Assembly: GCA_038380435.1 (NCBI GenBank) | Contig: JAWZYU010000011.1 | Span: 87,644,501 to 87,708,500 of the forward strand | DNA: 64,000 nt | Source of the DNA: Ryuthela nishihirai | Taxonomy: Eukaryota; Arthropoda; Arachnida; Araneae; Heptathelidae | Direction: 5' to 3' | Part shown: positions 3,067-56,398 of the stretch, piece by piece | Layout: every line of letters starts with the position of its first letter | Numbering within the stretch: the stretch's first letter is position 1 | Notes under the pieces: generated by a model | What the model was told of the DNA's origin: nothing | Databases searched by the model: none | The model's input: the letters and a program-made list of their open reading frames with translations, nothing else | Position numbers and translations under genes: made by a program

Positions 3067-3738
3067 GGGAATTCGTCATGGGGAAAACATGCGCAGAACA
3101 TGAGTCAAACCCAGACTACCATCGTGAGCTGTCCTGTCAAGTACATGGAGCTCTTGACGGACACCTCACTGGTTGTGACTGACATCACTGTCATCAGTGA
3201 TCAGGCCGTGTTAGTCGCACACAAGCCCGCGAAGTCTGCTACTCCTCCAAACACCCATGGAAGCCTGATTCTCGCTGCAATGGTGACGAGTCATGCCCGA
3301 CTTAAACTGTACGAGCTTCTGTCAAAATTAGGAGCTCGTGCACTGTATTCAGTGATCTATACGACGTCTCCCGCCAATACCTACACCCCTACACAAAACC
3401 CATTTCTCGGAGGTCTCGTCGATGAAATTACATCGAAATATGGAAGTGATGTACATATCACTGATTATGTCAGCTCTGGAGCTAAAAGTTATGCCCTCCG
3501 TCTGAGTAATGGCGACGAGATTCTGCGTGCCAAAGGCGTATCTTTCACGAAGAAAAACCGTGAAAAGTATAATTTTGAACTGCTAAAATCCATGGTTTTA
3601 GGATAGTCCCCCTCCAATGAGACCTTCGATGTCCCTTTCAACCTGGTTCATAATAAAGTGGATGGGTCACTTACGAATAAGCCCATGGTAAAAAGGTTCA
3701 AGGCCAACCTTGATAAGCATTATCACAGCTCAGGTTAA
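3067..3738 (+). pseudogene. Polinton/adintovirus-type protein-primed DNA polymerase B, C-terminal fragment
   Basis: Fragment of a viral/organellar family B DNA polymerase that would copy the element. Homology starts upstream of the first ATG (3100) at a motif B-like NSSWGK, then MSQTQT, ELLTD, and the strong block SHARLKLYELLSKLG. Three things show it is dead. It is cut at the 5' side by the LINE. The motif C region reads ALYSVIY, so the residues that normally carry the catalytic aspartates are absent between 3348 and 3349 with the frame kept. A TAG at 3604-3606 interrupts a frame that then stays open for about 44 more codons to TAA 3738. It belongs with the minus-strand integrase and other genes at 5-8 kb. 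Confidence 0.8.
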
Positions 3739-3749
3739 ACTGTTACTGT

Positions 3750-3940
3750 AAATAAAAAAAAATAAATAAATACCCCCTCAAGCAGCTGCTTGCCACAGAG
3801 GTCTGACAGGAGCCTGTCAGTTTATATGCCATAGTAGAAGGTCTGAGAGGATGGCAGGCCCTCAGCAGAAAAACGACAATAACAGCCATACCTTACCCGG
3901 GGCTCAAACCCTATGGGTATAATGACCTGGGATTGGATAA
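3750..3940 (-). repeat. SINE family 1, tRNA-derived copy
   Basis: Reverse-strand copy of the SINE whose best copies are at 42.5-42.95 kb. The 3' end gives CCCCTCAAGCAGCTGCTTG on the plus strand, followed by the body with GTCTGACAGGAGCCTGTCAG. The tRNA head near 3900-3940 is diverged. It inserted just after the PolB stop. Confidence 0.8.
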
Positions 3941-3969
3941 CCTTATTCAGCTCATGGATGAGTAAATAC

Positions 3970-4185
3970 AGTTTTTATTTCATTGTACATAGTGACTCTT
4001 AATTTATTATTTCAATGTTCATAGTAATTCTTAATTTATTATTTCAATGTACATAGTGGATCACACATATTTCAATGTTCATAGTGATTCTTAATTTATT
4101 ATTTCAATGTCCTTAGTGGACCTTATTTTATTATTTCAATGTCCTTAGTGGACCTTAATCTATTATTTCAGTATCTGTAGTGGAT
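3970..4185. repeat. AT-rich tandem repeat, about 35-55 bp units
   Basis: At least five imperfect copies of a unit built from TTATTATTTCAATGT followed by a variable TCATAGTG, ACATAGTG or CCTTAGTGGACC. It lies in the gap between the convergent Polinton PolB and integrase genes. Confidence 0.75.
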
Positions 4186-5040
4186 CTCATGTATTCGTAG
4201 CGGATCTTAAAATTTTTTATACTGCTAAATATATCCGTAATGTCCCTTATAACACACAGCGTCATCGGCAGCTTTTGAAATTTGTATTTTTTTATACTGA
4301 TCTTATATGTGTATTTTTATACTGCTAAACATTTTTGAATTTTGTTAGCAACATCATTGCCTTTGAAATCTGTTAAATATTACCGTAGTGGTTTTATACT
4401 GCTAAATATTTCCGCAATGGATCTTATTTGAAATTGTCATATGAATTATCACCACTGTCTGTTTTATAATTGTAACTGTTAATATTTTTAATAAAAAAAG
4501 ATTTAAAAAAAATCAGTCCCTTTATTTCCTAACAGTAAACGATATCTATGTGGGAGGGGAATAATTTAAAAGTAAGAGGGGCCTCGACTTTGTTTTTACT
4601 GGAGTTCTAAAGATGAAGTATTGTCAGCACAATGAACTACAGCAGCGCGACTTAGGGAGAGCGTTCCTTCAGTGTGCAGCGCCCATCAGTTGCAGTGCGA
4701 CGGCGATATTTCTGTCATGCCCGCTACAGAAACTCAATGAAGCGACACTCCCTAACTTGTTCTTCAGCAGCATGTTGATTGGCTCTCCTCTGTGCGCTCT
4801 CTGCATGCACTAACGCCCCCTATTGCACTTTCGGTTTCGAGCTGTCAGCGGAAGTCAGCGAGCGTATTCACTAGCGCCATCTAGTGGTGCTGTAAAAAAC
4901 TAAATCACTGAAAGAATGAACAATAGGCGTATACCAGTTTTAATTTCTTTTATTGGATATGACAAATTTTTAATACATTGTTTTTATCACAAATTTTTAA
5001 TACATGGTTTTTTTTCTTTCTTTTTTTTAAATACAGAATT
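4186..5040. other. Non-coding gap between convergent Polinton genes
   Basis: AT-rich to about 4510, then a more mixed segment to 4900 and a T-rich tail. The one small frame (4613-4813) has no recognisable domain and is not called. Confidence 0.5.
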
Positions 5041-5665
5041 TTAATACAGTCGAACCCAGACAGCATCCTCATTGTTTAAGGTCATGTCCTTGGGAGCCAT
5101 ATCGTATGCACTATGAACTGTGGCATTGTATCCTCGTAAAAACACGTTACAGCACATCCAAGTACCGGTAGGTGTTATTGCGTGTATAATATCTTCCCAG
5201 TCTCTCGCGTAGAGTGCAATTCCATCTCTCAACCAAAGCGGGTTTTTTTGTCAGAGTAGGTGATGAAGAACTGAATACCTTTCTTTTTCAGGAATTTCTG
5301 GAATACTCTGTTGGTGAATTCAGTACCTTGATCCGTATTAAATTTCATGGGAGATCGCCCCTTGAAAAGGATTTTTTTGAAAGCCGACACCATTTCTTTC
5401 CCTGTTTTTGCCTTTATAGGCACCATCCACCCATACCTTTAGAACACATCGATGACCGTTAATATGTAGTGATAACCGTCATTGAAGCGAGTTAGATTTT
5501 TTACAACTATGAGATCGGCTTGCCATTGCTCGTCTAAACCTGTGCTGTAAACTTTGTTACGGGGGAAGTTTCTGCAAGCAGGTTTATGTAACGTGTAGGT
5601 AGGTTGCTTTTCTAACCACTCTCAGACGAGTTTGAGTGGCAGCCCTGTATTCAGAGCTAACTTTT
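5041..5665 (-). pseudogene. Polinton-type retroviral-like integrase, broken
   Basis: Remains of an rve-family DDE integrase that would insert the element with a 6-bp target duplication. Blocks in order on the minus strand are HKPACRNFPRNK, the first catalytic region DEQWQADL, NDGYHYILTVIDVF, KFNTDQGTEF (second Asp), then in a shifted frame an ERWNCTLRERL block with the expected Glu. It ends with YNATVHSAYDMAPKDMTLNN, characteristic of Polinton integrases. The gene carries at least two in-frame stops (a TGA after PLKLV and a TAA after VIDVF) and two frameshifts, so it is inactive. It lies 3' of the membrane-protein gene on the same strand. Confidence 0.85.
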
Positions 5666-6031
5666 TTACACTACCGAATCCTCTTTCAGGGTCGAAATAA
5701 TGGGATTCCAAAGTTTTGTTTTCTTCTTCACCCAGACGTCGTATTCCACCAGGTTTTGCCATTGGTGTAACAAAAGTGTAACACCTGTAACTGTAGGGAT
5801 GTCTCCTATAAACTGTATGATGTCCATTGTTAAGTTACACACGCGAATTTTGTATTCACCGTCTAAGGCTTTTGACTCTACACACTGAATATTTTTACTA
5901 GGAGCCACAAGTTCTAATACAAGCACCACTATCGTTAACACGGTTACGATTACACTACCGGCACTAGCTAACACCTTCTTTCTCCTATCCATACTAAGAC
6001 TAAATGAAACAGGTTTAAAAGACAGACACAT
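5666..6031 (-). CDS. Small membrane protein of the older Polinton (unknown)
   Basis: A 121-codon open frame between the integrase remains and the PC4-like gene, same strand. It has a basic start (an internal ATG gives MDRRKK) followed by one strong hydrophobic segment, about residues 21-44 (VIVTVLTIVVLVLELVA), then a hydrophilic domain with two cysteines. This suggests a single-pass membrane protein. Many Polintons and adintoviruses carry short membrane or minor virion proteins, but I cannot match this one to a family. It is intact, unlike its neighbour. Confidence 0.5.
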   Translation of the reverse strand: MCLSFKPVSFSLSMDRRKKVLASAGSVIVTVLTIVVLVLELVAPSKNIQCVESKALDGEYKIRVCNLTMDIIQFIGDIPTVTGVTLLLHQWQNLVEYDVWVKKKTKLWNPIISTLKEDSVV

Positions 6032-6045
6032 TATATAGATTGCAA

Positions 6046-6822
6046 TTATTTATTTAATTTATACATTTCATTTTTTGCCTCGTCGACAATAGTATTATAT
6101 TTCAGAGTACACACAAATCCAGAATCTACAAAATTCAACAGACCTCGTTTCCAGACCGTATCCACAAACGCTTGTGCAGAGGCATTAATGTCCAAGTCAC
6201 CAGACCACCCTATGATGGTCAGTATTTTTTCTTCGGGTTGTAGTCCATCTAATGGGATCAGACGTGTTAGTTCTTGCTGAAAAATATTCACCAGCAGCTG
6301 ATGTACACACTCGGGGCCACCGAAAACAGGCCCCAACAGGAAAGGTCGAACTGATTCACAATGTTCTATAATGGCACTGTGGAGATGGTGATCTTTGGGA
6401 GTTTCACACACGTTATGTATGACACGTATCACTTCGTCTACATGGATAGCCAGCATAAACCACTGCAACGCGTTTAGAGTTATACTGCGACTCACAACAT
6501 GGAACTGTAGAGTTCTTTGGTCAGCTGATTCTTTGATGAAGTCGACACAGCATTCACTACCTACGTTGCGGTACATGTAGACACGTAAACCAGGCATCAC
6601 GTACCATGTCTGTTGATCGGGACCGATTTTCACTTGGTCCTCTATTTGGGACACTGTGGCACACAAAGCCTCCCATTCAGGTATGAAGATGGTGACCCCC
6701 ACAGGTGAAGGGTAGATGAGTTCACCATTTTCATATTTCTTGTAGCGACGTAAGTGCACAGAAAACTTATTTTTGAACAGCGAAGGGCACAACATAAACA
6801 TCTTCACCGAGACACCACGCAT
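6046..6822 (-). CDS. Tandem PC4-like (p15 coactivator fold) protein of the older Polinton
   Basis: An intact 258-codon frame. Residues 14-64 resemble the PC4/p15 single-strand DNA-binding domain: FKNKFSVHLRRYKKYENGEL, then VGVTIFIPEWEAL with the conserved Trp at 50 and SQIEDQV. Residues 73-136 repeat the pattern more weakly, with a strand-rich LRVYMYR, then SITLNALQWFML (Trp121) and VDEVIRVI. The C-terminal half is unassigned and ends in a charged helix. PC4 domains bind single-stranded DNA and act in transcription or replication; here that role is inference. A second protein with the same two-domain layout is at 21369-22193 in the other Polinton-like element. It starts at the first ATG and is separated by 14 bases from the next gene. 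Confidence 0.65.
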   Translation of the reverse strand: MRGVSVKMFMLCPSLFKNKFSVHLRRYKKYENGELIYPSPVGVTIFIPEWEALCATVSQIEDQVKIGPDQQTWYVMPGLRVYMYRNVGSECCVDFIKESADQRTLQFHVVSRSITLNALQWFMLAIHVDEVIRVIHNVCETPKDHHLHSAIIEHCESVRPFLLGPVFGGPECVHQLLVNIFQQELTRLIPLDGLQPEEKILTIIGWSGDLDINASAQAFVDTVWKRGLLNFVDSGFVCTLKYNTIVDEAKNEMYKLNK

Positions 6823-6985
6823 CTGAATTGCTAGCCTGCATCATGAACAATAACGCACTCGACGGTCGCCACCTATTTAACGTGGGAAAGCAGCGCCCTC
6901 TGGAAGCAGGAACGATAATTATGCAGATAATATGATTGTCCAATAAGCGAACACCTGGTGATGCAACACTTGTTGTAACATGTTC

Positions 6986-7501
6986 TCAATACTTGAGACG
7001 TCGATCAATCCATCCAAAAAAAGCAGCTGTTTTGGCTAAAGAGCAGTGGACTCCCTCTCCTGCGTGATATCCACACTCGAAATCAGAAACTTTTGGGAGC
7101 TCACAATATTTGGGACATCCGTAAAGTTCAAGATTAACACTGGGAAGATTTGATTTCTCCAAGAGAATTCTTTCCACGCTGCCTCCTTTGTAACCCACCA
7201 CAGTAGCTTCTTCAGTACATGTAAGTTTGTAAGCATATTTCACGATGTTAGGAACGTGATCTAACGTCCACACCTTTTTGCTAGGTAGAGGATGAAAGGG
7301 TAGGTCTAACACATATTTAGACATGTAGTTGACTGTCTTCCTGTCCTTTATTGACAAAGCTTGGTAATGTCGAAGATTGAACCGATAGACACCGCATTTC
7401 CCGTTCCGAGTTGCATATCCAAGTTCATGCACTAGGAAATGACCGTTTACATGAAACCCGTCGAGATCTAGAACCATACAGATATTTTGCATGTTCCACA
7501 A
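6986..7501 (-). CDS. DEDDh exonuclease-like protein of the older Polinton
   Basis: An intact 171-codon frame. Near the start it has VLDLDGFHVNG (Asp12, Asp14), which resembles the first exonuclease motif of RNase H-fold 3'-5' exonucleases. In the middle it has VVGYKGGSVERILLEK (102-116), a common KG-x-x-E pattern in a group of TE-borne exonuclease-like proteins. At the C-terminus there is a Cys/His cluster, CGYH (143-146) and VHCSLAKTAAFFGWI, where the HC and the following helix could be the last motif. It is on the same strand as, and just upstream of, the PC4-like gene. The fold call is inference from motif order; catalytic activity is uncertain. Confidence 0.5.
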   Translation of the reverse strand: MWNMQNICMVLDLDGFHVNGHFLVHELGYATRNGKCGVYRFNLRHYQALSIKDRKTVNYMSKYVLDLPFHPLPSKKVWTLDHVPNIVKYAYKLTCTEEATVVGYKGGSVERILLEKSNLPSVNLELYGCPKYCELPKVSDFECGYHAGEGVHCSLAKTAAFFGWIDRRLKY

Positions 7502-15672: not shown

Positions 15673-15918
15673 TACAGGTAACCCCCGTTTATCGCGACCC
15701 CGGCGAGTGCGGATTCGTTATATCGCGATTTTTTTTTTGTCTCGGCACTTGTGTAGCTTTGAAACATGCGAGGAAAAGTCAAAATCAAAATGAATGGTTG
15801 CACGTGCGTGCTAACTTCCTTTCTCGCTCAATCACATCATACACATGTACATAACGTAAAGTGACGAGCGTGGGCGAGACAAAAGATCGCCGTGCGCCGG
15901 TGCCTGGTACGGTTGAGC

Positions 15919-15924
15919 CAGTGC
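15919..15924 (+). repeat. Target-site duplication, left
   Basis: CAGTGC directly before the AGTAGTAGC terminus. The identical hexamer follows the right terminus at 25472-25477. Confidence 0.9.
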
Positions 15925-16257
15925 AGTAGTAGCAACTTATCTTTGGCGTGAATAAATTATCTCCGGTCCACTGCACACGGTGGCGTCCTTGTGTGAATAA
16001 ATTATCTCCATTGCACACGCTGACGGCGGGGGGTTTAATTTTTGAGGGGGGGGGTTTAATTTTTGGTTTCCCACGTTGGGGAGGGGCGCGTCCGGAAGTG
16101 TCGACCCCCACACGTGTGTGCTACCCTAGCAGTTGTTGGTCAATATTCTACCGGTAGTGTTGGAGAGGTCTTTGACCCCTTAGGTGAGCAACGGTCTAGG
16201 GCTGCCACCCGTATGCTTTTCCTGGCGTCGGGCTGACCGTGGGATTCTTGTAATGAC

Positions 16258-16830
16258 AACCCATGCGTATCAGCACGCAGACGGGATGTTAAAAAAAGGA
16301 CGCCACGACAGGTCCCGTGGGAAACCCAGATTCTTGCTGAAAATGTCCGTTGGCGAGCACGAAGGTAGAAACGAAATTTAAAAAATGACGACCCCCATTT
16401 CTTACCCCCATGCGTATCAGCACGCAGACGGGATGTTAAAAAAGGACGCCACGGAAGTTCACGTGGGAAACCCAGATTCTTGCTGAAAATGTCCGTTGGC
16501 GCGCACGCAGGTAGAAACGAAATTTAAAAAATGATGACCCCCATTTTTTACCCCCATGCGTATCAGCACGCAGTCGGGATGTTAAAAAAAGGACGCCACG
16601 ACAGGTCCCGTGGGAAACCCAGATTCTTGCTGAAAATGTCCGTTGGCGAGCACGCAGGTAGAAACGAAATTTAAAAAATGACGACCCCCATTTCTTACCC
16701 CCATGCGTATCAGCACGCAGACGGATGTTAAAAAAAAGGACGCCACGGGAGGTCACGTGGGAAACTCAGATTCCTACTGAAAGCGACCGTTGGCGAGCAC
16801 GCAGGTAGAAACGAAATTAAAAAAAAATGA
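16258..16830 (+). repeat. Tandem array in left arm, 146-147 bp period, four units
   Basis: The string TGCGTATCAGCACGCAG recurs at 16264, 16411, 16557 and 16704. Each unit also has GGATGTTAAAAAA, GACGCCACG, GTGGGAAACCCAGATTC and TGAAAATGTCCGTTGGCG. Apparent frames across it are repeat artefacts. Confidence 0.92.
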
Positions 16831-16875
16831 ATGTCATTGGTGGGAGGGGGAGTACCCGCGAATGCGCATACCGTC

Positions 16876-17504
16876 ATGGAGTTGTCATACGGCGAGAAAC
16901 TTGCGGCATTAAGTCGGATTCAGGGAGAGCTCGAGGATATCCTTCTGCGTATCGAGTTGGAATCAGCTATGCGGACCTCGAGACCGACCCTTGGACAGCC
17001 GAGAGATGCCTCCGGCCGACCGAGCACCTCCAGCCAGCCGAGAGATAACTCCGGCCAGTCAAGTGCCACCGGACAGTCACGGCCCACCGACCTGCCAAGC
17101 ACCTCCGCCAAGCCCCGTACCTGGCGCCTCAGCCTAAAGAGACGTCGCCAGATGCGTGGAGAAGGCCCCCGACGCCAAGCGTCCCCACCGCTGCAGCATC
17201 TTCTGCGCCTGCGCCCGACATCGCGCAGGCAAGTGCGACTCCCGGCTACGTAGTGACGCGCTCCAACAGCTTCAGGTCCGCCAAATACAAAGCTATATTC
17301 ACGTCCCAACCGGACCCACACGTAACAGCATTTGTCTACCGCCTGAGGCAGTATGGTGCCCCTTTGGCAGAAATCGCCCACGCAGGCGGAATGTTAAAAA
17401 AAACGGACGCCACGGGAGGTCACGTGATCGTGGGAGAAGGGTTTAACTCTCACATTTCCTGTACACAGATTCTTTCTCGTATGAAGAGAAACTTTCTGAT
17501 TTAA
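16876..17504 (+). pseudogene. Arm gene, left copy: unknown protein with a frame change
   Basis: Starts MELSYGEKLAALSRIQGELE, a predicted helix with coiled-coil character, then a Ser/Thr/Pro/Gln-rich linker built of repeats of the type QPRDASGRPSTSS (about residues 35-75). It then meets a frame change near 17110-17120. In the new frame the text continues through PAPDIAQASATPGYV to a compact domain SNSFRSAKYKAIFTSQPDPH, VTAFVYRLRQYGAPLAEIAH and GGMLKK, ending at 17504. Both frames overlap and stay open well past the junction, and the right arm has the same arrangement. No family is recognised. It could be frameshifted expression, or two overlapping genes. Confidence 0.5.
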
Positions 17505-17759
17505 ATCGCGGCACGGCGTCATAGCACACCGTTAGCGAAGCATGACCTGTGCGCCTGAATTACATAATTTAACGATCAAAGTACTATCATTTTAAATATT
17601 ACGTTTGAGTGTAATTTACCGTACGTTTTAAAATATGCTCACGATGTTTGTCATAAAGGTGTGATTCATTTTACGTACAATACATAATTTATCAGTCAAG
17701 ATATAAAGGCGTGAATAAATTTTACGTGTAAGTGAAATATATTATCGTGTAAGCGTACG

Positions 17760-17915
17760 TTGTATGACCACGTATTATAACTTAGGTCCTACACACCAAT
17801 AAAAATAAGATAATGTATAACAAAAAATTATTTCTAGTAATCCTGCAGTGGATGTCCACGTATTATAACTTAGGTTGTACACACCAATAAAAATAAGATA
17901 ATGTTTAACAAAAAA
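17760..17915 (+). repeat. Two direct copies of a poly(A)-signal-bearing segment
   Basis: CCACGTATTATAACTTAGGT then CACACCAATAAAAATAAGAT occurs twice, about 105 bp apart. Each copy holds AATAAAA downstream of the arm gene, so they may serve as 3'-end signals. The mirror pair is in the right arm near 23440-23600. Confidence 0.7.
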
Positions 17916-18524
17916 AAAAACACTTTTTGAGATGTGCATACAGAAACACAATTGGGAATTAATTTTGCTCTAGACAATTATAAAGCAGTTTTTGATTCTG
18001 CTTAAAGCAGAGGATTTGACCCGGAAGAAGATCTGTACATGCTAAAACAATGCATGGTTCAACTTATTCAATGCATCTGTTGGAATCGACTACCAAAGTA
18101 TAAAGCATTGAGTCAGGCTCTTTGATTCATATGATTAACTATTATGGTTTACTACGAAAGCTTTTAGTAATGAATAGAACAGTAAATAACATCAAAACTT
18201 TTCGAGATCTGCATACAGAAATATCTGAAAACATCAGACGGGGGAAAAATTCTAGTAATCCAGTCAACATCTAAATAATTCTAGAAGTTTAATGCGAAAA
18301 AGTACCCAGGTCAACCCGTACTTCTTGAATATTCTGGACAGCAGAAACACACTTAAACGTTACCAAAGCTGAGACCGTAATGTACCTTCACGACGGGAAT
18401 TCTCTATTTTTCGAAAATTCTTATACAAAAGTTTAGACATCGAGATGCTGAACCGCAAATACAACACCCCAAGGGTTAAAGGATCTTTCTAAAAACCCTC
18501 GTAACTTTGACGGTACGCTTTTTC

Positions 18525-18725
18525 TGCAACACACTACCCCAGGGGCTAAAAATCAAACACAGCTTGTTTTTCTGTGATGCTCCACCGATATGAGGACCAA
18601 CCCTATACACAGGTTATATTCACTTGACTGATTTAAATCAAAACTTTGGCGCACTACCCAGGGGTTAAAAAATCAAACCCAGCGTGTTTTTCTAGGTTGC
18701 ACCATCGATATGTGGACAAACCAGT
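18525..18725. repeat. Direct repeat of about 110 bp in the inner arm
   Basis: Two related segments, each with CACTACCC, AGGGG(C/T)TAAAAA, ATCAAAC, AGC(T/G)TGTTTTTCT and CGATATG(A/T)GGAC in order. The mirror pair lies at about 22635-22840. Non-coding. Confidence 0.7.
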
Positions 18726-18904
18726 TTCCATATTCTTAGGGCGAACTGAAAAAAGCTGGCAAAGGTCATATTGAGATATTCACAGTCTGATGATTTAAAT
18801 ACACACGCTATATTCACGGACTGATGATTAAAAACGCCATAAATATACACTTTTCTGATGAGTAAGTTGACTCGTACACGGGGAAATGTACGGACATCAA
18901 AGGG

Positions 18905-19147
18905 TTAAGATTTTACGTCTGAGGTCTTGCACTCTGACCGTGCTTTCAGTTTAAAACATCGTTGTCTGTGTGTTTCAAGTTGCCACAGGACGCGTGATTT
19001 TTTACGAGTCGACGTATTAAAGCCGCAATAGGCGACCACGCAGCCGAGCAACATTATGGAGACAGACGATGTCCTTGAAAGACGCAACTCCGTCGGGACA
19101 CTGGCAGGGGAGGATTTGAAAAACTCGAGGCCTGAATGGCTTTTCAC
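18905..19147 (-). CDS. Small frame crossing the arm/centre boundary (doubtful)
   Basis: An 80-codon frame whose first half is unique central sequence and whose second half lies in the arm. It contains MLLGCVVAYCGFNTSTRKKS, loosely like the start of a THAP-type zinc finger (C-x4-C), and a basic tail. The remaining zinc ligands of a THAP domain are not evident. It may be a gene truncated or duplicated at the boundary, or chance. Confidence 0.25.
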   Translation of the reverse strand: MKSHSGLEFFKSSPASVPTELRLSRTSSVSIMLLGCVVAYCGFNTSTRKKSRVLWQLETHRQRCFKLKARSECKTSDVKS

Positions 19148-19159
19148 TCCCGTTATTTT

Positions 19160-19857
19160 CTAAGACATAACAAATATTCTGATATCACTTATTTAAATTC
19201 AGAAACTATTCTCCATCTTTATCACTGTTCATTTTAATACCACCTAAGTTTACTATATTTGTTGATATGTACTGGGGTGTCAAACCACTTGAACGTAAAA
19301 GCAAACTGTCTTTGGTACATTTGCATGCACACTTGACCCCACTGCTCTAAAACAGGTTTCACGAACTTTCTTTGGGTATTACAGCGCAAACGTATGGACT
19401 GCGCTATTGGTAAAGAATGTTTTACTGCGAACATTAATCTCTTTCATATCGGGAGTAAAATTACACGCACAAACGAGTTAGGTTGTTCATGTTGGAAGAA
19501 AATTTAAGATTCTTATTTCCTGTGTTTTTCTCTTGTAGGTACGTATAAAGAATGTTTTGGAATAGACGTTTACACCATAATTGCTTAATGCTATCACATT
19601 TGTACACGCCAAGACATGTGAAAAAGTTTGCAGCGTAAAGTCCCTGTAACACATTTTGAGATTCACTTAAAACTCCTCTGGGCGTTTACACGCAATTTTC
19701 TGTGTAATTCCGCTGTCTGGGAAATTAGCCATCACTTTCTGCCTATAGTTTTTGACAGCCATCTTTGTCTCGCTAGTTCGTATAGGGTTTAGGTAAACCT
19801 TTTCAAAACCGTTAAGAAAGAAATCACAATGACAATAAAATCAGATACACTATTTAT
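19160..19857. other. Central segment, no confident gene
   Basis: Minus-strand frames of about 65 codons (19434-19234 and 19652-19461) and a 31-codon MAVKNYRQKVMANF frame (about 19770-19680) show no domain. They may be decayed relatives of the PC4-like gene, given the recognisable copy next door. Confidence 0.35.
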
Positions 19858-20127
19858 TTAATAACTATTAGTACATATACAGCCCGCGTCGCAGGAAAGT
19901 TCCATACAGACAGGAATGATATCTAAACGATGTAACTGAACTTCTTTCACAAAAATGTTTAGCGATAACGATGAATGTTTCTTACATCTTCTGGGAAATA
20001 GTCTACAACTGTTATAGCAAGGTACCAATGGCGAAGCTGACTTTACCCGCAATACAGTTCTTTGCGCATTCTGACACATTCTTAACTGAACGGTGAAGAG
20101 CCATAGTGTATAGTTAAATTCATTCAC
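19858..20127 (-). pseudogene. Decayed duplicate of the 3' end of the tandem PC4-like gene
   Basis: At DNA level this matches the 3' end of the gene at 21369-22193. On the plus strand both have TTAGTACATAT with CAG nearby, CTTC with CACAAAAA, GTTTAGCGATA, GAATGTTTCT, a TATAGCAA, ATGGCGAAGCTGACT and CAATACAGTTC in the same order. The reading frame is shifted and no PC4-like Trp block is present. It is therefore a degenerating tandem copy inside the same element. Confidence 0.75.
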
Positions 20128-20458
20128 TTCCCATCGCTGAAACCTTTGCTTGGTCCCTCAAGGCCTCTAGATGAGTTTGTAGGATGTCGAGGTAGCGTCT
20201 CATTTTGGAGGGTTCTGACGAGTTCATTACAGATAAGATTTCATGGTCTAGCCATTGCGAAGATGTTACGGCTGGGCCTTTACATTGATGGCTTTTAAGT
20301 CGCGCTACAAGTCCGATGACGTCCTTGTTACACTGTAAACAAACGGCACGAAATCCCTTTCCTTTAGGGTATTTCTTGAAACCTTTCCAAATAGGATCGC
20401 TCTTCCGTCCTGACATGTTCAACAAGTCGCTTACTGACAGCAAATGATACAGGCACAC
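20120..20458 (-). CDS. BED-type zinc-finger-like protein of the inverted-arm element
   Basis: 112 codons. From the internal MSGRKSDPIWKGFKKYPKGK onward it has the BED pattern: an aromatic entry, then FRAVCLQCNKDV (C-x2-C), GLVARLKSHQCKGP with the Gly and RLKxH typical of transposase BED fingers. His and Cys are the last ligands. A helical C-terminal part follows (MRRYLDILQTHLEALRDQ). BED fingers bind DNA, so it could recognise element ends; this is inference. An exact GATTTAAATC palindrome sits 13 bp upstream of its first codon (20471-20480). Confidence 0.6.
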   Translation of the reverse strand: MCLYHLLSVSDLLNMSGRKSDPIWKGFKKYPKGKGFRAVCLQCNKDVIGLVARLKSHQCKGPAVTSSQWLDHEILSVMNSSEPSKMRRYLDILQTHLEALRDQAKVSAMGSE

Positions 20459-20666
20459 AGTGGTACTTATGATTTAAATCCGAACCTTCAACCATTCAGT
20501 GTGAACCAATGAATGGCTTCTGCAATTCAGTGTGAACTATATCTCGACCAATGAAAGGCTTCTGCAAGATTCTCGTAACCTATTTACGCGCTCCAACAAC
20601 CCTACCTCTTTTTTTTTTATAGAACCTTAATGATCCGGTGGAAAATTCTCTAGTTTTTGAGGTAAT

Positions 20667-20828
20667 ATGACTCTCATGTGTGTAGTTTGTGAGTCTCTTC
20701 ATTTCAAATGCGCATGTGATGACGAGGACTATTTTTATTGTGATGGTTTTGAGAGGATGTCTTTAGAAAAGAATTGGTTATGTTCGAAATGTATCAATCT
20801 ACCCAGTAACACTTCTAAGCTTAAATAA
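20667..20828 (+). CDS. PHD-like zinc microprotein, 53 codons
   Basis: ATG 20667 to TAA 20826-20828. It has Cys at 5, 8, 15, 17, 25, 39 and 42 in the order CVVC, KCAC, YCDG and NWLCSKC. The WxCxxC ending and CxxC start resemble the short PHD fingers found in transposons. It is on the plus strand between minus-strand genes. It is short, but cysteine density and spacing make chance unlikely. It may bind zinc and a histone tail or protein partner; this is inferred. Confidence 0.5.
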   Translation: MTLMCVVCESLHFKCACDDEDYFYCDGFERMSLEKNWLCSKCINLPSNTSKLK

Positions 20829-20918
20829 ACAACAGAAGAACGCGTTATCACGTGATGTAACAACAGTTGCCATGGAGACTAAAAGTTGTACAACAGATAA
20901 ATCTAATGTGTATAACGG

Positions 20919-21152
20919 CTAGTCCCGTTTTCTTACATATCTCAAAATAAGAGGTAAAGCAACGTGAAGTACTTCTGGATTAAATCTGATACTAATCGCA
21001 TTACTCAACTGATTTAAATCCACAATAATGTTATTCAGGACTGCCTGTACAGTATGAGAAATTAATAAACACCCGGCCTTTTCCATTACAGGGACATGAA
21101 TAAGAAAAGACCTAGAACTCTGACAGTTGCTTGTTACAGAAGAAGCTAACAA
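20919..21152 (-). CDS. Hypothetical small protein (doubtful)
   Basis: 77 codons between the PHD-like microgene and the PC4-like gene. It reads MEKAGCLLISHTVQAVLNNI, then LNQLSNAISIRFNPEVLHVA. The second half has an alternating hydrophobic pattern but no known motif. A GATTTAAATC palindrome lies inside it (21011-21020), which may argue for a regulatory rather than coding role. Confidence 0.2.
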   Translation of the reverse strand: MLASSVTSNCQSSRSFLIHVPVMEKAGCLLISHTVQAVLNNIIVDLNQLSNAISIRFNPEVLHVALPLILRYVRKRD

Positions 21153-21368
21153 TTTAGAACGAGACGATTTCTTTCATAGCCAACACTGATATCAAATCTA
21201 CAACATTATTACTCTAATAACGAACAGTTTTCAGATAGTCATTCTTTTACATTTCTCGAATCAGTTAAGGAGAACAATGAAACAGCATTGCGGTAAAAAT
21301 CTTTTATTCATACACTAAGAAATTACAATGACGCCCAAACAGATATTGAACAGAAATTAGTAACACTA

Positions 21369-22193
21369 TTAGCATTTATTTAGTACATATTCAGAGGTAC
21401 GAACCAGTTCGGCGTACACTTTGTTTAGTAATATAGGAAAGTGTAACATGTAGGTATAATTATCTTCAACTCCGACCTCTTCCACAAAAAGTTTAGCGAT
21501 ATCACTTAAATGAATGTTTCTCAAGGCTTCTGCGAAATGAACATCCACTGATTCAACGGATATAGCAACACACGAATGGCGAAGCTGACTCGGATGATAC
21601 CCAATACAGTTCGTACGAAGAATCCGAAAAATTTCTTTTCTGACGAGAGTATTTAATGTTTTTATGAAACTTAGCTTGACTCTCTGATCATACGGTTCAA
21701 CATTGGACAGTCTTGGAGTATGGTCTGTAGTTAATTCGACATCTTTTACCGCATTAGAAAAGCTATTGAACTTCAGAGCCATCAAGCTGCATGTGATATA
21801 GTTGCGGGAATCTTTTAACCACGACCATTGTTTGATGCTGAGATGTACCGAAGAAATCGTTGAAGTACCGTCGTCACACACACCACCTTTTTCAATGACC
21901 ACCCCATTTTTACCCTTGAATACCACCATGCCGTGCAGTTCATACGCGAAGGTAGACGTATAGGCGAGTGTAGAAGTCAGTCCACACCACTGTTCTTCGG
22001 ATAATATAACCGAAGCCTTTATGGGTCTAAACGGAATGTCACAACACTTCTGAAGCAAACATATGTGGACTTCGGGAACGTTCTTGCAAATCTTCACCAA
22101 CAAGTCAGAGCCTAGCTGGTAGGCGTCATCTCCAATAGCAAACCGCTCCACGGGGAGATCACTTTCGGGCTGAACACAGGCCATCGTTAACAC
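21369..22193 (-). CDS. Tandem PC4-like protein of the inverted-arm element
   Basis: An intact 274-codon frame. Two PC4-like units are visible: about 31-75 (LLVKICKNVP, then ASVILSEEQWCGL with Trp69) and 89-135 (MVVFKGKNGVVI, then SSVHLSIKQWSWLKDSRNYI with Trp123). The W-x-x-L signature after a beta strand is the clearest trait. The C-terminal 130 residues include HPSQLRHSCVAIS and SDIAKLFVEEVG, shared at DNA level with the decayed copy at 19858-20127. The two-domain layout equals that of 6046-6822 although direct identity is low. A single-strand DNA-binding or transcription role is inferred. Its start lies about 145 bp from the right arm. Confidence 0.6.
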   Translation of the reverse strand: MLTMACVQPESDLPVERFAIGDDAYQLGSDLLVKICKNVPEVHICLLQKCCDIPFRPIKASVILSEEQWCGLTSTLAYTSTFAYELHGMVVFKGKNGVVIEKGGVCDDGTSTISSVHLSIKQWSWLKDSRNYITCSLMALKFNSFSNAVKDVELTTDHTPRLSNVEPYDQRVKLSFIKTLNTLVRKEIFRILRTNCIGYHPSQLRHSCVAISVESVDVHFAEALRNIHLSDIAKLFVEEVGVEDNYTYMLHFPILLNKVYAELVRTSEYVLNKC

Positions 22194-23854
22194 TTCAATA
22201 CTGCAAAACTATGTCTTTTCACATATCAAGTGTACTACTTATACCTAAAACCTTTGACGTCACCTGGCTAAATAGACCACCATTGGTCGAGATCTAATTC
22301 CTAGTGATATTAAAAACCAATTGTAGAAGAGTATTTTCTTTAATACGTCGACTCGTAAAAAATCACGCGTCCTGTGGCAACTTGAAACACACAGACAACG
22401 ATGTTTTAAACTGAAAGCACGGTCAGAGTGCAAGACCTCAGACGTAAAATCTTAACCCTTTGATGTCCGTACATTTCCCCGTGTACGAGTCAACTTACTC
22501 ATCAGAAAAGTGTATATTTATGGCGTTTTTAATCATCAGTCCGTGAATATAGCGTGTGTATTTAAATCATCAGACTGTGAATATCTCAATATGACCTTTG
22601 CCAGCTTTTTTCAGTTCGCCCTAAGAATATGGAAACTGGTTTGTCCACATATCGATGGTGCAACCTAGAAAAACACGCTGGGTTTGATTTTTTAACCCCT
22701 GGGTAGTGCGCCAAAGTTTTGATTTAAATCAGTCAAGTGAATATAACCTGTGTATAGGGTTGGTCCTCATATCGGTGGAGCATCACAGAAAAACAAGCTG
22801 TGTTTGATTTTTAGCCCCTGGGGTAGTGTGTTGCAGAAAAAGCGTACCGTCAAAGTTACGAGGGTTTTTAGAAAGATCCTTTAACCCTTGGGGTGTTGTA
22901 TTTGCGGTTCAGCATCTCGATGTCTAAACTTTTGTATAAGAATTTTCGAAAAATAGAGAATTCCCGTCGTGAAGGTACATTACGGTCTCAGCTTTGGTAA
23001 CGTTTAAGTGTGTTTCTGCTGTCCAGAATATTCAAGAAGTACGGGTTGACCTGGGTACTTTTTCGCATTAAACTTCTAGAATTATTTAGATGTTGACTGG
23101 ATTACTAGAATTTTTCCCCCGTCTGATGTTTTCAGATATTTCTGTATGCAGATCTCGAAAAGTTTTGATGTTATTTACTGTTCTATTCATTACTAAAAGC
23201 TTTCGTAGTAAACCATAATAGTTAATCATATGAATCAAAGAGCCTGACTCAATGCTTTATACTTTGGTAGTCGATTCCAACAGATGCATTGAATAAGTTG
23301 AACCATGCATTGTTTTAGCATGTACAGATCTTCTTCCGGGTCAAATCCTCTGCTTTAAGCAGAATCAAAAACTGCTTTATAATTGTCTAGAGCAAAATTA
23401 ATTCCCAATTGTGTTTCTGTATGCACATCTCAAAAAGTGTTTTTTTTTTGTTAAACATTATCTTATTTTTATTGGTGTGTACAACCTAAGTTATAATACG
23501 TGGACATCCACTGCAGGATTACTAGAAATAATTTTTTGTTATACATTATCTTATTTTTATTGGTGTGTAGGACCTAAGTTATAATACGTGGTCATACAAC
23601 GTACGCTTACACGATAATATATTTCACTTACACGTAAAATTTATTCACGCCTTTATATCTTGACTGATAAATTATGTATTGTACGTAAAATGAATCACAC
23701 CTTTATGACAAACATCGTGAGCATATTTTAAAACGTACGGTAAATTACACTCAAACGTAATATTTAAAATGATAGTACTTTGATCGTTAAATTATGTAAT
23801 TCAGGCGCACAGGTCATGCTTCGCTAACGGTGTGCTATGACGCCGTGCCGCGAT

Positions 23855-24483
23855 TTAAATCAGAAAGTTTCTCTTCATACGAGAAAGAATCTGTGTACAG
23901 GAAATGTGAGAGTTAAACCCTTCTCCCACGATCACGTGACCTCCCGTGGCGTCCGTTTTTTTTAACATTCCGCCTGCGTGGGCGATTTCTGCCAAAGGGG
24001 CACCATACTGCCTCAGGCGGTAGACAAATGCTGTTACGTGTGGGTCCGGTTGGGACGTGAATATAGCTTTGTATTTGGCGGACCTGAAGCTGTTGGAGCG
24101 CGTCACTACGTAGCCGGGAGTCGCACTTGCCTGCGCGATGTCGGGCGCAGGCGCAGAAGATGCTGCAGCGGTGGGGACGCTTGGCGTCGGGGGCCTTCTC
24201 AACGCATCTGGCGACGTCTCTTTAGGCTGAGGCGCCAGGTACGGGGCTTGGCGGAGGTGCTTGGCAGGTCGGTGGGCCGTGACTGTCCGGTGGCACTTGA
24301 CTGGCCGGAGTTATCTCTCGGCTGGCTGGAGGTGTTCGGACGGCCGGAGGCATCTCTCGGCTGTCCGAGGGTGGGGCTCGAGGTACGCATAGCTGATTCC
24401 AACTCGATTCGACGAAGGATATCCTCGAGCTCTCCCTGAATGCTGGTGAGTGCGGCAAGTTTCTCGTTGAATGACATCTCCAT
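23855..24483 (-). pseudogene. Arm gene, right copy
   Basis: Second copy of the gene at 16876-17504, starting MEMSFNEKLAALTSIQGELE. It has the same linker and the same frame change. The first frame ends at a TGA near 24199 (KRRRQMR then stop), caused by TGG to TTG relative to the left arm. The second frame continues through SNSFRSAKYKAIFTS to the same end. The domain in the second frame is nearly identical to the left copy. Function unknown. Confidence 0.5.
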
Positions 24484-24569
24484 GACGGAATAACGCTTGC
24501 CGGACTGTGCGGGAGATTATAAACCACTACAATGCGCATGCTCGGGTACTCCCACCAATGACATTCATT

Positions 24570-25140
24570 TTTTTAAAATTTCGTTCCCGCCTGCGTGCTC
24601 GCCAACGGACATTTTCAGCAAGAATCTGAGTTTCCCACGTGACCTCCCGTGGCGTCCTTTTTTTAACACCCCTCCTGCGTGGTGATACGCATGGGGGTAA
24701 GAAATGGGGGTCGTCATTTTTTAAATTTCGTTTCTACCTGCGTGCTCGCCAACGGACATTTTCAGCAAGAATCTGGGTTTCCCACGGGACCTCCCGTGGC
24801 GTCCTTTTTTTAACATCCCGTCTGCGTGCTGATACGCATGGGGGTAAGAAATGGGGGTCGTCATTTTTTAAATTTCGTTTCTACCTGCGTGCTCGCCAAC
24901 GGACATTTTCAGCAAGAATCTGGGTTTCCCACGGGACCTGTCGTGGCGTCCTTTTTTTTAACATCCCGTCTGCGTGCTGATACGCATGGGGGTAAAATAT
25001 GGGGGGGCGTCATTTTTTAAATTTCGTTTCTACCTGCGTGCTCGCCAACGGACATTTTCAGCAAGAATCTGGGTTTCCCACGGGACCTGTCGTGGCGTCC
25101 TTTTTTTTAACATCCCGTCTGCGTGCTGATACGCATGGGT
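24570..25140 (-). repeat. Tandem array in right arm, about 147 bp period
   Basis: Reverse-complement counterpart of the left array, about four units. GATACGCATGGG recurs near 24688, 24829, 24977 and 25127. Apparent frames of about 100 codons across it are artefacts of the repeat. Confidence 0.92.
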
Positions 25141-25471
25141 TGTCATTACAAGAATCCCACGGTCAGCCCGACGCTAGGAAAAGCATACGGTTGGCAGCCC
25201 TAGACCGCTGCTCACCTAAGGGGTCAAAGACCTCTCCAACACTTCCGGTAGAATATTGACCAACAACTGCTAGGGTAGCACACACGTGTGGGGGTCGACA
25301 CTTCCGGACGCGCCCCTCCCCAATGTGGGAAACCAAAAATTAAACCCCCCTCAAAAATTAAACCCCCCGCCGTCAGCGTGTGCAGTGGAGATAATTTATT
25401 CACACAAGGACGCCACCGTGTGCAGTGGACCGGAGATAATTTATTCACACCAAAGATAAGTTGCTACTACT

Positions 25472-25477
25472 CAGTGC
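25472..25477 (+). repeat. Target-site duplication, right
   Basis: CAGTGC, identical to 15919-15924. Confidence 0.9.
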
Positions 25478-25576
25478 ATCATTTGGGTCTATCCTTCAGT
25501 GGAATCTTAGCTGCAGTGTCAAACGCGCGCTAATTAAATTGACTACATATTTTTTTATCCCTTCGTAATTTTTAAA

Positions 25577-27144
25577 ATGTCAAAAAGACAATGTGAAAAT
25601 TCGATTAAGAAAATTCGCAATGTAGTGACTTTAGAAAAGAAACTAAAAAATATAGAAAGGATAGAAAGTGGTGGTAAATTTACAGTTGTAGGAAGGGATT
25701 TCAAATTGCCTGAGTCTACAGTGCGATCAATTGTGCAACAAAAAGACAAAATTAAAAAGGATGGCGAAAGTGGTACTCCAATTACAGCGACGAAAGTTTC
25801 ACGAACCAGAAGTTTTTTGATGACAGAAATGGAAAATTTATTAAGCAAATGGATAGAGGACCTAAATCAACACCACATGCCTGTGAGTACCCAAATCATA
25901 ATGAATAAATCAGTCTTTGGGATCATTTAAAATCTCAACATGGAGGAGAAGAAGTTTTTAAAGCAAGCAAAGGTTGGTTTGATCGGTTTAGAAAACGATC
26001 AAACTTGCATAGCCTTAAAATTATTGGCGAATCGCCTAGTGCAGACGTAGAATCAGCTGAAAAATATCCAATGGAGTTCCGTGAAATTGTGGAAAGGGGA
26101 AATTATCCACAAAATTTAATTTTTAATGTAGATGAGACGGAACTCTATTGGAAACGAATGCCAACACGTACGTTTATTTCCATAGAGGAAAAGACTGCTT
26201 CTGGATTTAAAGCAGCCAAGGATCGGCTAACTCTTCTTCTCGGCGGAAATGCATCCGGAGAATTAAAATTGAAACCATTGTTGATTTATCAATCAGAAAC
26301 TCCTCGTGCCATGAAAGGTTATTCTAAAAACAATTTACCAGTTTTTTGGCGAAGTAACCCTAAGGCTTGGATGACACAAAATTTATTTATGGACTGGTTT
26401 AAAACTTGTTTCTGCTCAGCAATAAAAAAATATTGCGAGGATATTGGAGTTGAACCTCGAGCTCTTTTGGTGTTGGATAATGCACCTGGACATCCTGTGG
26501 AACTTGAGACTCTGTGCACTGATTTTCCCGTTGAAGTGGTATTCTTACCTACGAATACCACTTCCATCTTACAGCCTATGGATCAAGGCGCAATAGCAGC
26601 ATTCAAAGCCTATTATTTAAGAAAAACGATGCGCCAACTCATTGAAGAAACTGATGGAGGTGGTAGAGATGCCATGCGGGTTTGGTGGAAACAATTTAAT
26701 ATTATGAAAGCTATCAGAAACATCGACGAAGCGTGGAATGAAGTCGCCCAGTCGTGTATGAAGGGTGTTTGGAAAAGGTTGCTCAGAGAAATTGTTGAAG
26801 ATCACATCAATTATGAAAATGATATTCAAAATATCATCGAAGAGATTACTCTTATAGCCACTTCCGGAGGCATCGAAGGTGTTGATGTAGATGATATTCA
26901 GACTTTGTTAAAATCACACGGTAAACCCTTAACTAATGAAGAGCTGCAGGAAATGGACTGCCATACTATGTCCCAAGAAAATGACGTCTCGGAATCTGTT
27001 CACGTGCGAAAGTTAAGTGTCAAAATCATTGAAAAGGCCCTTTCTCCTCACAATCAATGCATGGAGTTGTTAGAAGAAAAAGACGAAGATTACGAGCGAG
27101 TGAGTGCTGTAAAGCGTGGTTGTAACGGATCATTTGACAGTTAA
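25577..27144 (+). pseudogene. Tigger/pogo transposase, split by one frameshift
   Basis: The N-terminal frame (25577-25930) holds a psq-type helix-turn-helix: KKLKNIERIESGGKFTVVGR, ESTVRSIVQQKDKI. A one-base shift near 25905-25920 leads to WDHLKSQHGGEEVFKASKGW and the CENP-B-like FDRFRKRS. The long 379-codon frame from 26005 carries the catalytic DDE_1 domain: IFNVDETELYWK (first Asp), LLVLDNAPGHP (second) and TSILQPMDQGAI (third, 34 residues between the last two). About 520 codons in total, the usual Tigger length. Apart from the frameshift it is open, so inactivation is recent or minor. Confidence 0.92.
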
Positions 27145-27399
27145 CGGCAAATTTTTCATAATAAACGTAGAGAGGCCAAACTAGGGATCCTTTTTGCAAC
27201 ACGGAACAAAATGAATGAATTATGAATTATGTTATGTATGACATTTTTTTTGTTATTTATAATATTTAATTTATTAATAAAGTGCTTTTTCGAATTTTAA
27301 AATGATTTTTTTTTTTAAATCCCCCGTTGATCGCGAAATTTCGCTTATCGCGACCATGTCCAGAACGTATCCTTCGCAATGAACGGGGGGTTACCTGTA

Positions 27400-42542: not shown

Positions 42543-42737
42543 ATGGCCGAGTGGTTAGCACGCTTGGCTATGATCTAAGGGACCTGGGTTCGAGCCCCGG
42601 ATCAGGCATGGATGTATGTGTCGTTTTTCTGCTGAGGTCCTGCCATCCTCACAGACCTTCTACTCTGGCATATAAGCTGACAGGCTCCTGTCAGACCTCT
42701 GTGGCAAGCAGCTGCTTGAGGGTGTATTTATTTATTT
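42543..42737 (+). repeat. SINE family 1, well-preserved copy
   Basis: tRNA head TGGCCGAGTGGTTAGCACGC (A box) and GGGTTCGAGCCCCGGATC (B box), body with GACAGGCTCCTGTCAGACC, end AAGCAGCTGCTTGAGGGTGT and a TTTA tail. Confidence 0.92.
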
Positions 42738-42743
42738 AGCCAT

Positions 42744-42952
42744 CCCATGGCCGAGTGGTTAGCGCGCTTGGCTACTGATCTAAGGGACCTGGGTTCGAGC
42801 CCCCGGTAAGGCATGGCTGTTTCTGTCGTTTTTCTGCTGAGGTCCTGCCATCCTCTCAGACTTTCTACTATGGCATATAAACTGACAGGCTCCTGTCAGA
42901 CCTCTGTGGCAAGCAGCTGCTTGAGGGGGTATTTATTTATTTTATTTATTTA
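42744..42952 (+). repeat. SINE family 1, second copy in tandem
   Basis: Same structure as its neighbour: TGGCCGAGTGGTTAGCGCGC, GGGTTCGAGCCCCCGGTAAG, CAAGCAGCTGCTTGAGGGGG, then (TTTA)n. Confidence 0.92.
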
Positions 42953-50007: not shown

Positions 50008-50186
50008 AGCAGTGGCCGATTTGTCGATAAGCGGACTAAGCAGCAGCATAGGTCCCCATCCACTGAGTTGCAGCCGAATTGTTCTATGAATTGCTTTCAT
50101 AACTATAGAGGTCATTTCAATTACACAACATAGGGCCCCTAAATGTTATTTCGCTTAGGACATCTGGACCTCTAAATCTGCTAGTG
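50008..50186. mobile_element. Possible hAT-like MITE
   Basis: CAGTGGCCGATTTGTCGATA on the left and AAATCTGCTAGTG on the right are loosely complementary (CACTAGCAGATTT). GGACTAAGC and GCTTAGGAC are mirrored inside. No clear duplication. Confidence 0.35.
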
Positions 50187-50193
50187 CAGTGCC

Positions 50194-55742: not shown

Positions 55743-56210
55743 TTTAGTTGAGAAATAAAGCATTACAAAAAATTTTTTGAAATCATGTCGTCATTTTATC
55801 AATAATGCCACAATTCTAAATCAAAGATTATTAAATGTGACAGAAAAAGGAAATATAAACATTACAGTGAGAGCTGTACTGTATTAGAAGAGTTATTAGA
55901 CACAAGAGAAAACTATTCATTGTAAAATAAAATTCAAAAATATAATATATATTTTCTTAGAAATGTGATATGATATATAAATTAATGACACATATATTAT
56001 ATGCTTTCCTATACAAGATAATGGGATAATAAATTCACGAAAAAACATTATTTAATGCAAATATAGCATCTATCTACACTCCTACCAACTTATTACGAAT
56101 TTGCATGTTATATCAATGAGAAATTTTAAAGTTCTATTACTCCTAATTTCAGCTTTTTATGAATAATTATATAACTTAAAATTATAATAATAATTTTAAT
56201 AAAATAAAAA
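55743..56210. other. No gene seen
   Basis: Strongly AT-rich. Confidence 0.5.
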
Positions 56211-56211
56211 A

Positions 56212-56398
56212 TAAATACCCCCTCAGCAGCTGCTTGCCACAGAGCTCTGACAGGAGCCTGCAAGTTGTATGCCATAGTAGGTCTGAGAAGATGGCAAAGA
56301 CTTCAGGAGAAAAACAACACGAACATCCATGCCTTACCCAGAGCTCGAACCCAGGTCCCTTAGATTAGTAGCCAAGCACACTAACCACATGGACAAAT
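56212..56398 (-). repeat. SINE family 1 copy
   Basis: Reverse strand: CCCCTCAGCAGCTGCTTGCC, CTGACAGGAGCCTGCAAG, CCATGCCTTACCCAGAGCTC, AGTAGCCAAGCACACTAACC. Confidence 0.88.

Follow-up and report, generated by a model that had tools for sequence, protein, structure and literature searches.

A 64,000-bp stretch of the genome of the spider Ryuthela nishihirai (contig JAWZYU010000011.1, positions 87,644,501 to 87,708,500, forward strand; here denoted the window) holds a 9547-bp element at 15925-25471 with Polinton-like ends and long inverted arms. How does such an element arise, and how is it copied and inserted? Our analysis makes it probable that the element is the shortened form of a palindromic satellite that depends on a Polinton/adintovirus as helper, with arms that would be produced by fold-back replication. 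The parent form is a DNA of 12.7-13.2 kb, in which a unit of 6.3-6.6 kb is repeated head to head round a short AT-rich loop. The features on which the argument is built are as follows (C34 is the candidate helper, and C28, C8, C30 and C17 are further copies, all introduced below).

15675-27397, plus strand: Tigger/pogo host element that received the insertion, with CENP-B_N and DDE_1 matches
15919-15924, no strand: left copy of the target duplication CAGTGC
15925-15987, plus strand: left tip of (AGT)2 type; the same 63 bp stand at both ends of C34
15925-22340, plus strand: complete arm, from the tip to near the axis; the interior aligns to both arms of C28, C8, C30 and C17
16260-16825, plus strand: 147-bp tandem repeats of the left arm, ~3.9 units
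22338-25471, minus strand: second arm, truncated, with ~3.3 kb of the inner part and the axis gone
24570-25139, minus strand: 147-bp tandem repeats of the right arm, ~3.9 units
25409-25471, minus strand: right tip of (AGT)2 type
25472-25477, no strand: right copy of the target duplication CAGTGC

The element is bordered on both sides by CAGTGC and its termini are AGTAGTAGC...GCTACTACT (AG..CT), so that the exact 6-bp duplication and the AG...CT ends noted in the initial annotation are borne out by the sequence. The same annotation placed the insertion within a Tigger transposon, and this too was confirmed by TA duplications at 15673-15674 and 27398-27399, by the CENP-B_N and DDE_1 matches and by the left end CAGGTAACCCCCGTTTATCG, the right counterpart of which is imperfect. 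An Rfam scan of the window gave no match at the gathering threshold. IS3EU/GingerRoot elements were considered and rejected: the 6-bp duplication fits, but the termini are AG..CT and not TA..TA (occasionally TG..CA), as given in excerpts of PMC10045372.

A genome search with the element end, as the initial annotation had proposed, revealed other copies. We used the first 301 bases of the element as query against the same 3.11-Gb genome assembly, in which loci are labeled by contig (C17, C28 and so on); 40 of 223 candidates were scored, hence the counts are lower bounds. The end has at least 41 matches in the genome. Paired ends define elements at C17, C28, C8, C30 and C12, flanked by the 6-bp duplications AATGTA, AGAGAG, ACTACC, TAGATT and GCCGAT, respectively, and another palindrome, C24:21290883-21302167, was located through its copy of a 271-amino-acid (aa) gene described below. 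Duplications of other lengths elsewhere would, according to the initial annotation, speak against its reading. They were mostly not seen: six of the seven palindrome-type elements (the window copy included) have a perfect 6-bp duplication, the flanks of C24 (AGCATG/AGCACG) agree at 5 of 6 bases, and a derivative on C19 has none. All 14 tips of these seven elements start with AGTAGT, and within each element the first 30 tip bases are equal, bar one base in the window copy. Tip variants differ between copies; the first 24 bases of the C24 tip are those of the PolB element C8:637289.

For C17, C28, C8 and C30, the interior aligns twice with the window arm, head to head, and the alignment extends to 22340, or to 22247 on one side of C17. 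Because these interiors align twice, what looks like a centre in the window element belongs to a complete arm as its inner half; the complete arm at 15925-22340 takes in both the left arm and the centre of the initial annotation. C28 (13228 bp), C8 (13124 bp) and C30 (12669 bp) are full palindromes with arms of 6.3-6.6 kb, and they mirror through the axis at 99.5-99.7% over the 2.6-2.8 kb around it. The axis loop is AT-rich and asymmetric, with 19, 27 and 22 nt, respectively, between CTCTG and CAGAG. C24 is palindromic through the axis and has the same loop as C30. In C17 one side of the axis is gone, leaving 258 unpaired bp that are 94% like the C28 axis, and in C12, as in the window copy, one arm is without its inner part. 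At C3 and C9 the axis is palindromic as well and has a different sequence, therefore the axis arose or moved more than once. The opposite loop orientations of C8 and of C28/C30 were at one point read as flip-flop, a sign of hairpin telomeres; this was dropped, as insertion orientation explains them.

Judged by these alignments, the window element is a deletion derivative, and its arms are remnants of 6.4-kb arms. The truncated arm joins the complete one at a shared CTT (22338-22340). The arm lengths given in the initial annotation stand, since the left arm (15925-19022, 3098 bp) and the right arm (22338-25471, 3134 bp) align at 96.6%, whereas the structure it proposed, 3.1-kb arms round a centre, gives way to a truncated 13-kb palindrome. 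Counting the substitutions between the arms, a check it had suggested, gave 63, all in the outer 1234 bp (in the left arm, at or outside 17158). The inner 1864 bp have no substitution and a single length change in an A run.

In the other copies the two arms of one element are nearly the same. Over the outer ~1.7 kb we counted 1 substitution between the arms of C17, 4 in C28, 1 in C8 and 6 in C30; C28 has in addition shifted gaps of 21 columns, and the C30 figure varies with the alignment, the 300-base profile giving 2 and the 1700-base comparison 6. Outer arms of different copies differ by 12-87 substitutions, the minimum being window-left against C28-left. Interiors behave in the same way within a copy, with 4 substitutions in 4184 positions (C17), 2 in 4540 (C28), 2 in 4487 (C8) and 6 in 4200 (C30). 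Even the number of 147-bp units agrees between the arms of one copy (4/4 in C17 and C28, 3/3 in C8 and 2/2 in C30), while it varies from 2 to 4 between copies. The arms thus seem to be copied from each other, in the manner of long terminal repeats (LTRs), and this is the pattern expected if both arms had been synthesized on a single template not long before insertion.

A partner that carries PolB and integrase and shares these ends, which the initial annotation had suggested looking for, was found at C34:17695060-17710266. Both ends of this 15.2-kb element carry the same tips, and it is flanked by a 6-bp duplication, AAGGCC; its inverted ends are identical over 63 bp and then only partly alike. 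Nine of its open reading frames (ORFs), taken from separate pieces, were scanned with Pfam and gave DNA_pol_B_2 (1.9e-47), rve (1.8e-15), Peptidase_C5, an adenovirus-type protease (5.4e-6), and PC4 (1.3e-5). The PolB is an open frame of 1398 aa in the genome search. An ATPase is suggested by Pfam matches below the cut-off (AAA_14 at 1.3e-4, Pox_A32 at 2.2e-4). ORFs of 442 and 371 aa, which by eye are taken for candidate capsid proteins, have no Pfam match, nor have two further ORFs. Excerpts of PMC11071296 define adintoviruses by a PolB with an N-terminal OTU-like domain, an rve integrase with a C-terminal chromodomain and a recognizable Hexon. Measured against this definition, C34 has PolB and rve, a chromodomain match at E 0.019 only, and capsid candidates without Pfam match. 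C34 is a plausible helper on the evidence of its genes and ends, and the description of the window element as a non-autonomous Polinton derivative is supported accordingly.

We also searched the genome with Pfam DNA_pol_B_2, scoring 76 of 4358 candidates; this gave at least 151 matches, and 76 loci were compiled. Among the 41 end matches listed, 16 lie less than 12 kb from a PolB, 15 near a 271-aa gene, 10 near neither and none near both. Further PolB groups, with many equal-score loci among the matches listed (e.g., frames of 1263 and 1331 aa), were seen genome-wide, suggesting other recently active Polintons. At C19:10625563-10629258, a 3.7-kb derivative carries the helper PolB end and, at its other side, a 243-bp inverted copy of the same end. 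It is a second kind of product.

Comparison of the arms with C34 revealed how satellite and helper are related. Arm positions 1-1384 match the PolB-side end of C34 (84-96%), including the start of the PolB frame, whereas the other C34 end matches only arm positions 1-141 (79%) and 123-272 (91%). Both ends of the satellite resemble the PolB-side end of the helper. Because the arm match includes the PolB start, the protein gene that the initial annotation assigned to each arm is instead a truncated, frame-broken fragment of the helper PolB frame. The corresponding features are listed here together with those of an exchange in the right arm; diagnostic sites are positions at which C34 and the window left arm differ.

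16876-17306, plus strand: truncated PolB start with broken frame, left arm (the former arm gene), from its match to C34 PolB
24053-24483, minus strand: right-arm counterpart of this PolB fragment, helper-type in its first part
24308-24334, minus strand: inner exchange boundary of the right arm, palindrome type inward of it
24335-24821, minus strand: helper-type stretch of the right arm, C34 type at 42 of 43 diagnostic sites

The helper-type stretch, of ~0.5 kb, accounts for 42 of the 63 substitutions between the window arms, and positions 700-1100 from the tip of the right arm are one base off C34. Inward from 24307, the left-arm base stands at all 28 diagnostic sites in the region homologous to C34, and at 20 more past the point where similarity to C34 ends. 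Either a crossover or a conversion tract, involving C34 or a relative, may account for the exchange. Judged by the switch at the boundary, the satellite and helper lineages are shown to recombine.

The satellite carries genes of its own, which in the window copy are located in the complete arm; it is the former centre, and not the arm gene of the initial annotation, that holds the conserved ORFs:

20120-20416, minus strand: 98-aa ORF, zinc-finger (BED-like) by eye only, no Pfam match
20667-20828, plus strand: 53-aa cysteine-rich ORF, with a weak PHD_2 match (E 0.047, below Pfam's cut-off)
21369-22184, minus strand: 271-aa ORF with a C-terminal HPSQxxHSC motif, a putative relative of an adintovirus protein, under purifying selection in its relatives

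Genome search with the 271-aa ORF, in which 142 of 2228 candidates were scored, gave at least 146 matches (at least 142 after merging), many of them partial or with stops. Among the matches listed, all 16 pairs of these genes less than 8 kb apart are divergent, and the 76 listed PolB loci are all more than 25 kb from each of the 142 loci. For the 10 top-ranked copies, a sample that favors intact ones and yields non-independent pairs, the nonsynonymous rate (dN) was below the synonymous rate (dS) in 44 of 45 pairs, with ratios of 0.06-1.13, 35 of the 45 within 0.27-0.56. By these ratios the ORF is shown to be under purifying selection in its relatives. All nine interior pieces that were inspected, taken from five elements, have the 98-aa ORF intact.

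Searches of Pfam, PHROG and PDB with the 271-aa ORF brought no significant match; none of 368 candidates in the protein collection matched, and no relative was found in viral_contigs, where a 22-base tip pattern likewise had 0 exact matches. DUF3203 appeared in 11 of 14 family members, with E values up to 1 (best 0.0052), and the AlphaFold2 model, with a mean pLDDT of 35, is of no use. A profile of 14 open-frame relatives, A1, detected one outside protein at E 2.7e-3. This protein is matched by 39 proteins, itself included, among them 'acintoc5 [Pimephales minnow adintovirus]', and hhalign of A1 against a profile of 15 of the 39 gave a probability of 97.4 and E 1.4e-11 over 49 columns around CxGCxxDHPSQxxHSC. 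The ORF thus appears to be distantly related to an adintovirus protein, a link that rests on this motif; in the window copy three residues are missing inside it. A PC4-like reading of the ORF was dropped, as hhalign of A1 against the PC4-like ORF of the window gave a probability of 0.4.

As the initial annotation stated for the centre, no polymerase or integrase was recognized, here in the whole element: Pfam on 8 ORFs detected neither, and tblastn with the C34 ORFs for integrase, protease, ATPase and others gave no match in 15925-25471. In the interiors of C17, C28 and C8, inspection by eye of ORFs of at least 110 aa revealed no integrase, ATPase, protease or capsid gene; no profile search was made there. 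The DNA at 19940-20060 (minus strand) is 70% like 21475-21612, with no recognizable likeness at the protein level. The short palindrome GATTTAAATC occurs six times in the element (17498, 18630, 20471, 21011, 22721 and 23852), four of these in the single-copy part and one just upstream of the 98-aa ORF, and once in the rest of the window; it is a possible regulatory site.

We propose the following route. A protein-primed polymerase would need only the tip of the satellite, and the sliding-back start of adenovirus and phi29 replication fits the AGT repeats found there. Once displaced, a palindromic strand would fold back on itself as a hairpin in which one tip is complete, and its copying would rebuild both arms: synthesis from the tip through the loop would remake them and keep them identical. 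Mismatch repair in the hairpin could also equalize the arms. The helper integrase would then insert the duplex with a 6-bp stagger, both helper enzymes presumably acting in trans. In the window molecule, one arm would have acquired helper sequence, and integration would have followed before the other arm received a copy of it; either before or after insertion, the inner portion of one arm would have been deleted, giving the shorter window form.

Several observations weigh against this route. The window copy is itself an exception to arm identity, its outer arms being unequal (63 substitutions). The helper-type stretch covers 42 of these; 18 of the 63 lie outward of it, where the sequence is no nearer to C34 than to the palindromic copy C28: the right tip has 4/325 differences to either, and there are four 147-bp units in the right arm against two in C34. 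Beyond the matching end, only pieces of 27, 33 and 49 bp of the arm match C34, and the 49-bp piece is a fragment of the repeat unit. The flanks of the C19 derivative, AAGATG/TACGCG, do not form a duplication, and a simple insertion at that place is less likely for this reason. Action in trans is suggested by the shared ends, with indirect support from recombination, and satellite and helper are both known here from genome sequence alone. Finally, part of this pattern could also result from gene conversion within the chromosome.

Conversion has its own complete version: the helper integrase alone would move a two-ended element, and chromosomal gene conversion would keep the arms alike with no fold-back replication. 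Chromosomal palindromes, e.g., those of sex chromosomes, do undergo conversion, and in the window arms the inner 1864 bp are identical while the outer part differs, as this explanation would have it. We nevertheless consider it unlikely, as four copies at unrelated places have arms that are alike over the compared lengths, repeat number included. Moreover, copies more distant from the window one have lower self-complementarity near the axis (98.6% in C3, 98.6% in C19:37329370 and 94.5% in C9, over stretches of 0.5-1.9 kb), as expected of ageing without conversion, albeit in a small sample.

Long palindromes are troublesome for sequencing, and those described here are known from assembled sequence, hence fold-back reads might have produced them artificially. 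This we hold to be very improbable: the symmetry ends at the tips, beyond which the flanks differ and carry the duplications, the arms differ by a few substitutions, less perfect palindromes exist, and the 271-aa gene pairs are divergent in 16 of 16 cases. That the element is a Foldback-type transposon of the Mutator or P superfamily, merely resembling a Polinton, is scarcely credible. Galileo and Tetris, according to excerpts of PMC3573991 and PMC4079207, typically have long inverted repeats, internal tandem repeats and loss of the transposase, but their duplications measure 7 and 8-10 bp, respectively, against perfect 6-bp duplications in six of seven elements here, and the ends and 1.4 kb of the satellite are common to an element with PolB and integrase. 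On duplication length and shared sequence we rejected this reading. Fold-back copying of a helper-dependent satellite thus remains the explanation we prefer.

If this is correct, a parasite layer is added to Polintons by a satellite that has a conserved gene of its own and exchanges sequence with the helper, and arms that are identical at the start make each insertion datable. The replication of Polintons as linear, protein-primed DNA has mostly been deduced from their genes; near-identical 6.5-kb arms record DNA copying, as LTRs do, and therefore the replication route becomes testable. More tentatively, and with somewhat less than even confidence, we suggest a stable palindromic satellite lineage on Polintons/adintoviruses, with hairpin copying in each cycle, selected genes, exchange with the helper, near-helper length (13 versus 15 kb) and possibly packaging in helper capsids. 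Among the titles and abstract openings listed from the open literature, none reports palindromic Polintons; subscription journals and Repbase lay outside this scope, and a prior description is possible.

Elsewhere in the window, 3070-7486 is the remnant of another Polinton that matches C34 genes: the C-terminal part of PolB (41%, 3070-3747), integrase (56%, 5241-5777, with pieces to 5044), a PC4-like ORF (30%, 6061-6840) and a further ORF (44%, 7088-7486). A viral-type PolB remnant at 50185-52218, with Endonuclease_7 and DNA_pol_B_2 matches in 50714-51097, apparently belongs to another lineage. For the PolB and exonuclease-like ORFs of the window outside the element, no relative was found in viral_contigs. 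Dispersed repeats with a tRNA-like stretch, by eye similar to short interspersed nuclear elements, occur at 42543-42942, 56190-56399 and 3749-3912, once as a 205-bp tandem; ARAGORN detected no tRNA gene in them.

The satellite resembles Polintons/Mavericks in the 6-bp duplication of its copies, in the ends and 1.4 kb common to a PolB/rve element of the same genome, and in an ORF that appears distantly related to an adintovirus protein. Its tips, (AGT)2...(ACT)2, are as in vertebrate Mavericks, the intact forms of which have (AGT)2 or (AG)3 ends and inverted repeats of 46-1447 bp in excerpts of PMC8097293, compared with satellite arms of 6.3-6.6 kb. It differs further in that both its ends are of the PolB-side type and that it has no recognized PolB, integrase or capsid gene, and it is thus not an autonomous Polinton. 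With the Foldback elements Galileo and Tetris, as portrayed in excerpts of the literature, it has in common long inverted repeats, internal tandem repeats, non-autonomy and a dynamic structure; it differs from them in duplication length, in the kind of helper and in being a near-complete palindrome. Virophages and other satellite DNA elements depend on a larger DNA element, and a like dependence is suggested for the satellite, in which, unlike virophages, no capsid genes were recognized and for which the proposed helper belongs to the Polintons. Linear DNA viruses produce defective snap-back genomes, e.g., the symmetric deletion mutants of adenovirus, that carry a head-to-head duplicated genome end and depend on a helper; the satellite differs from these in being integrated, in having many copies and in carrying a conserved gene of its own.

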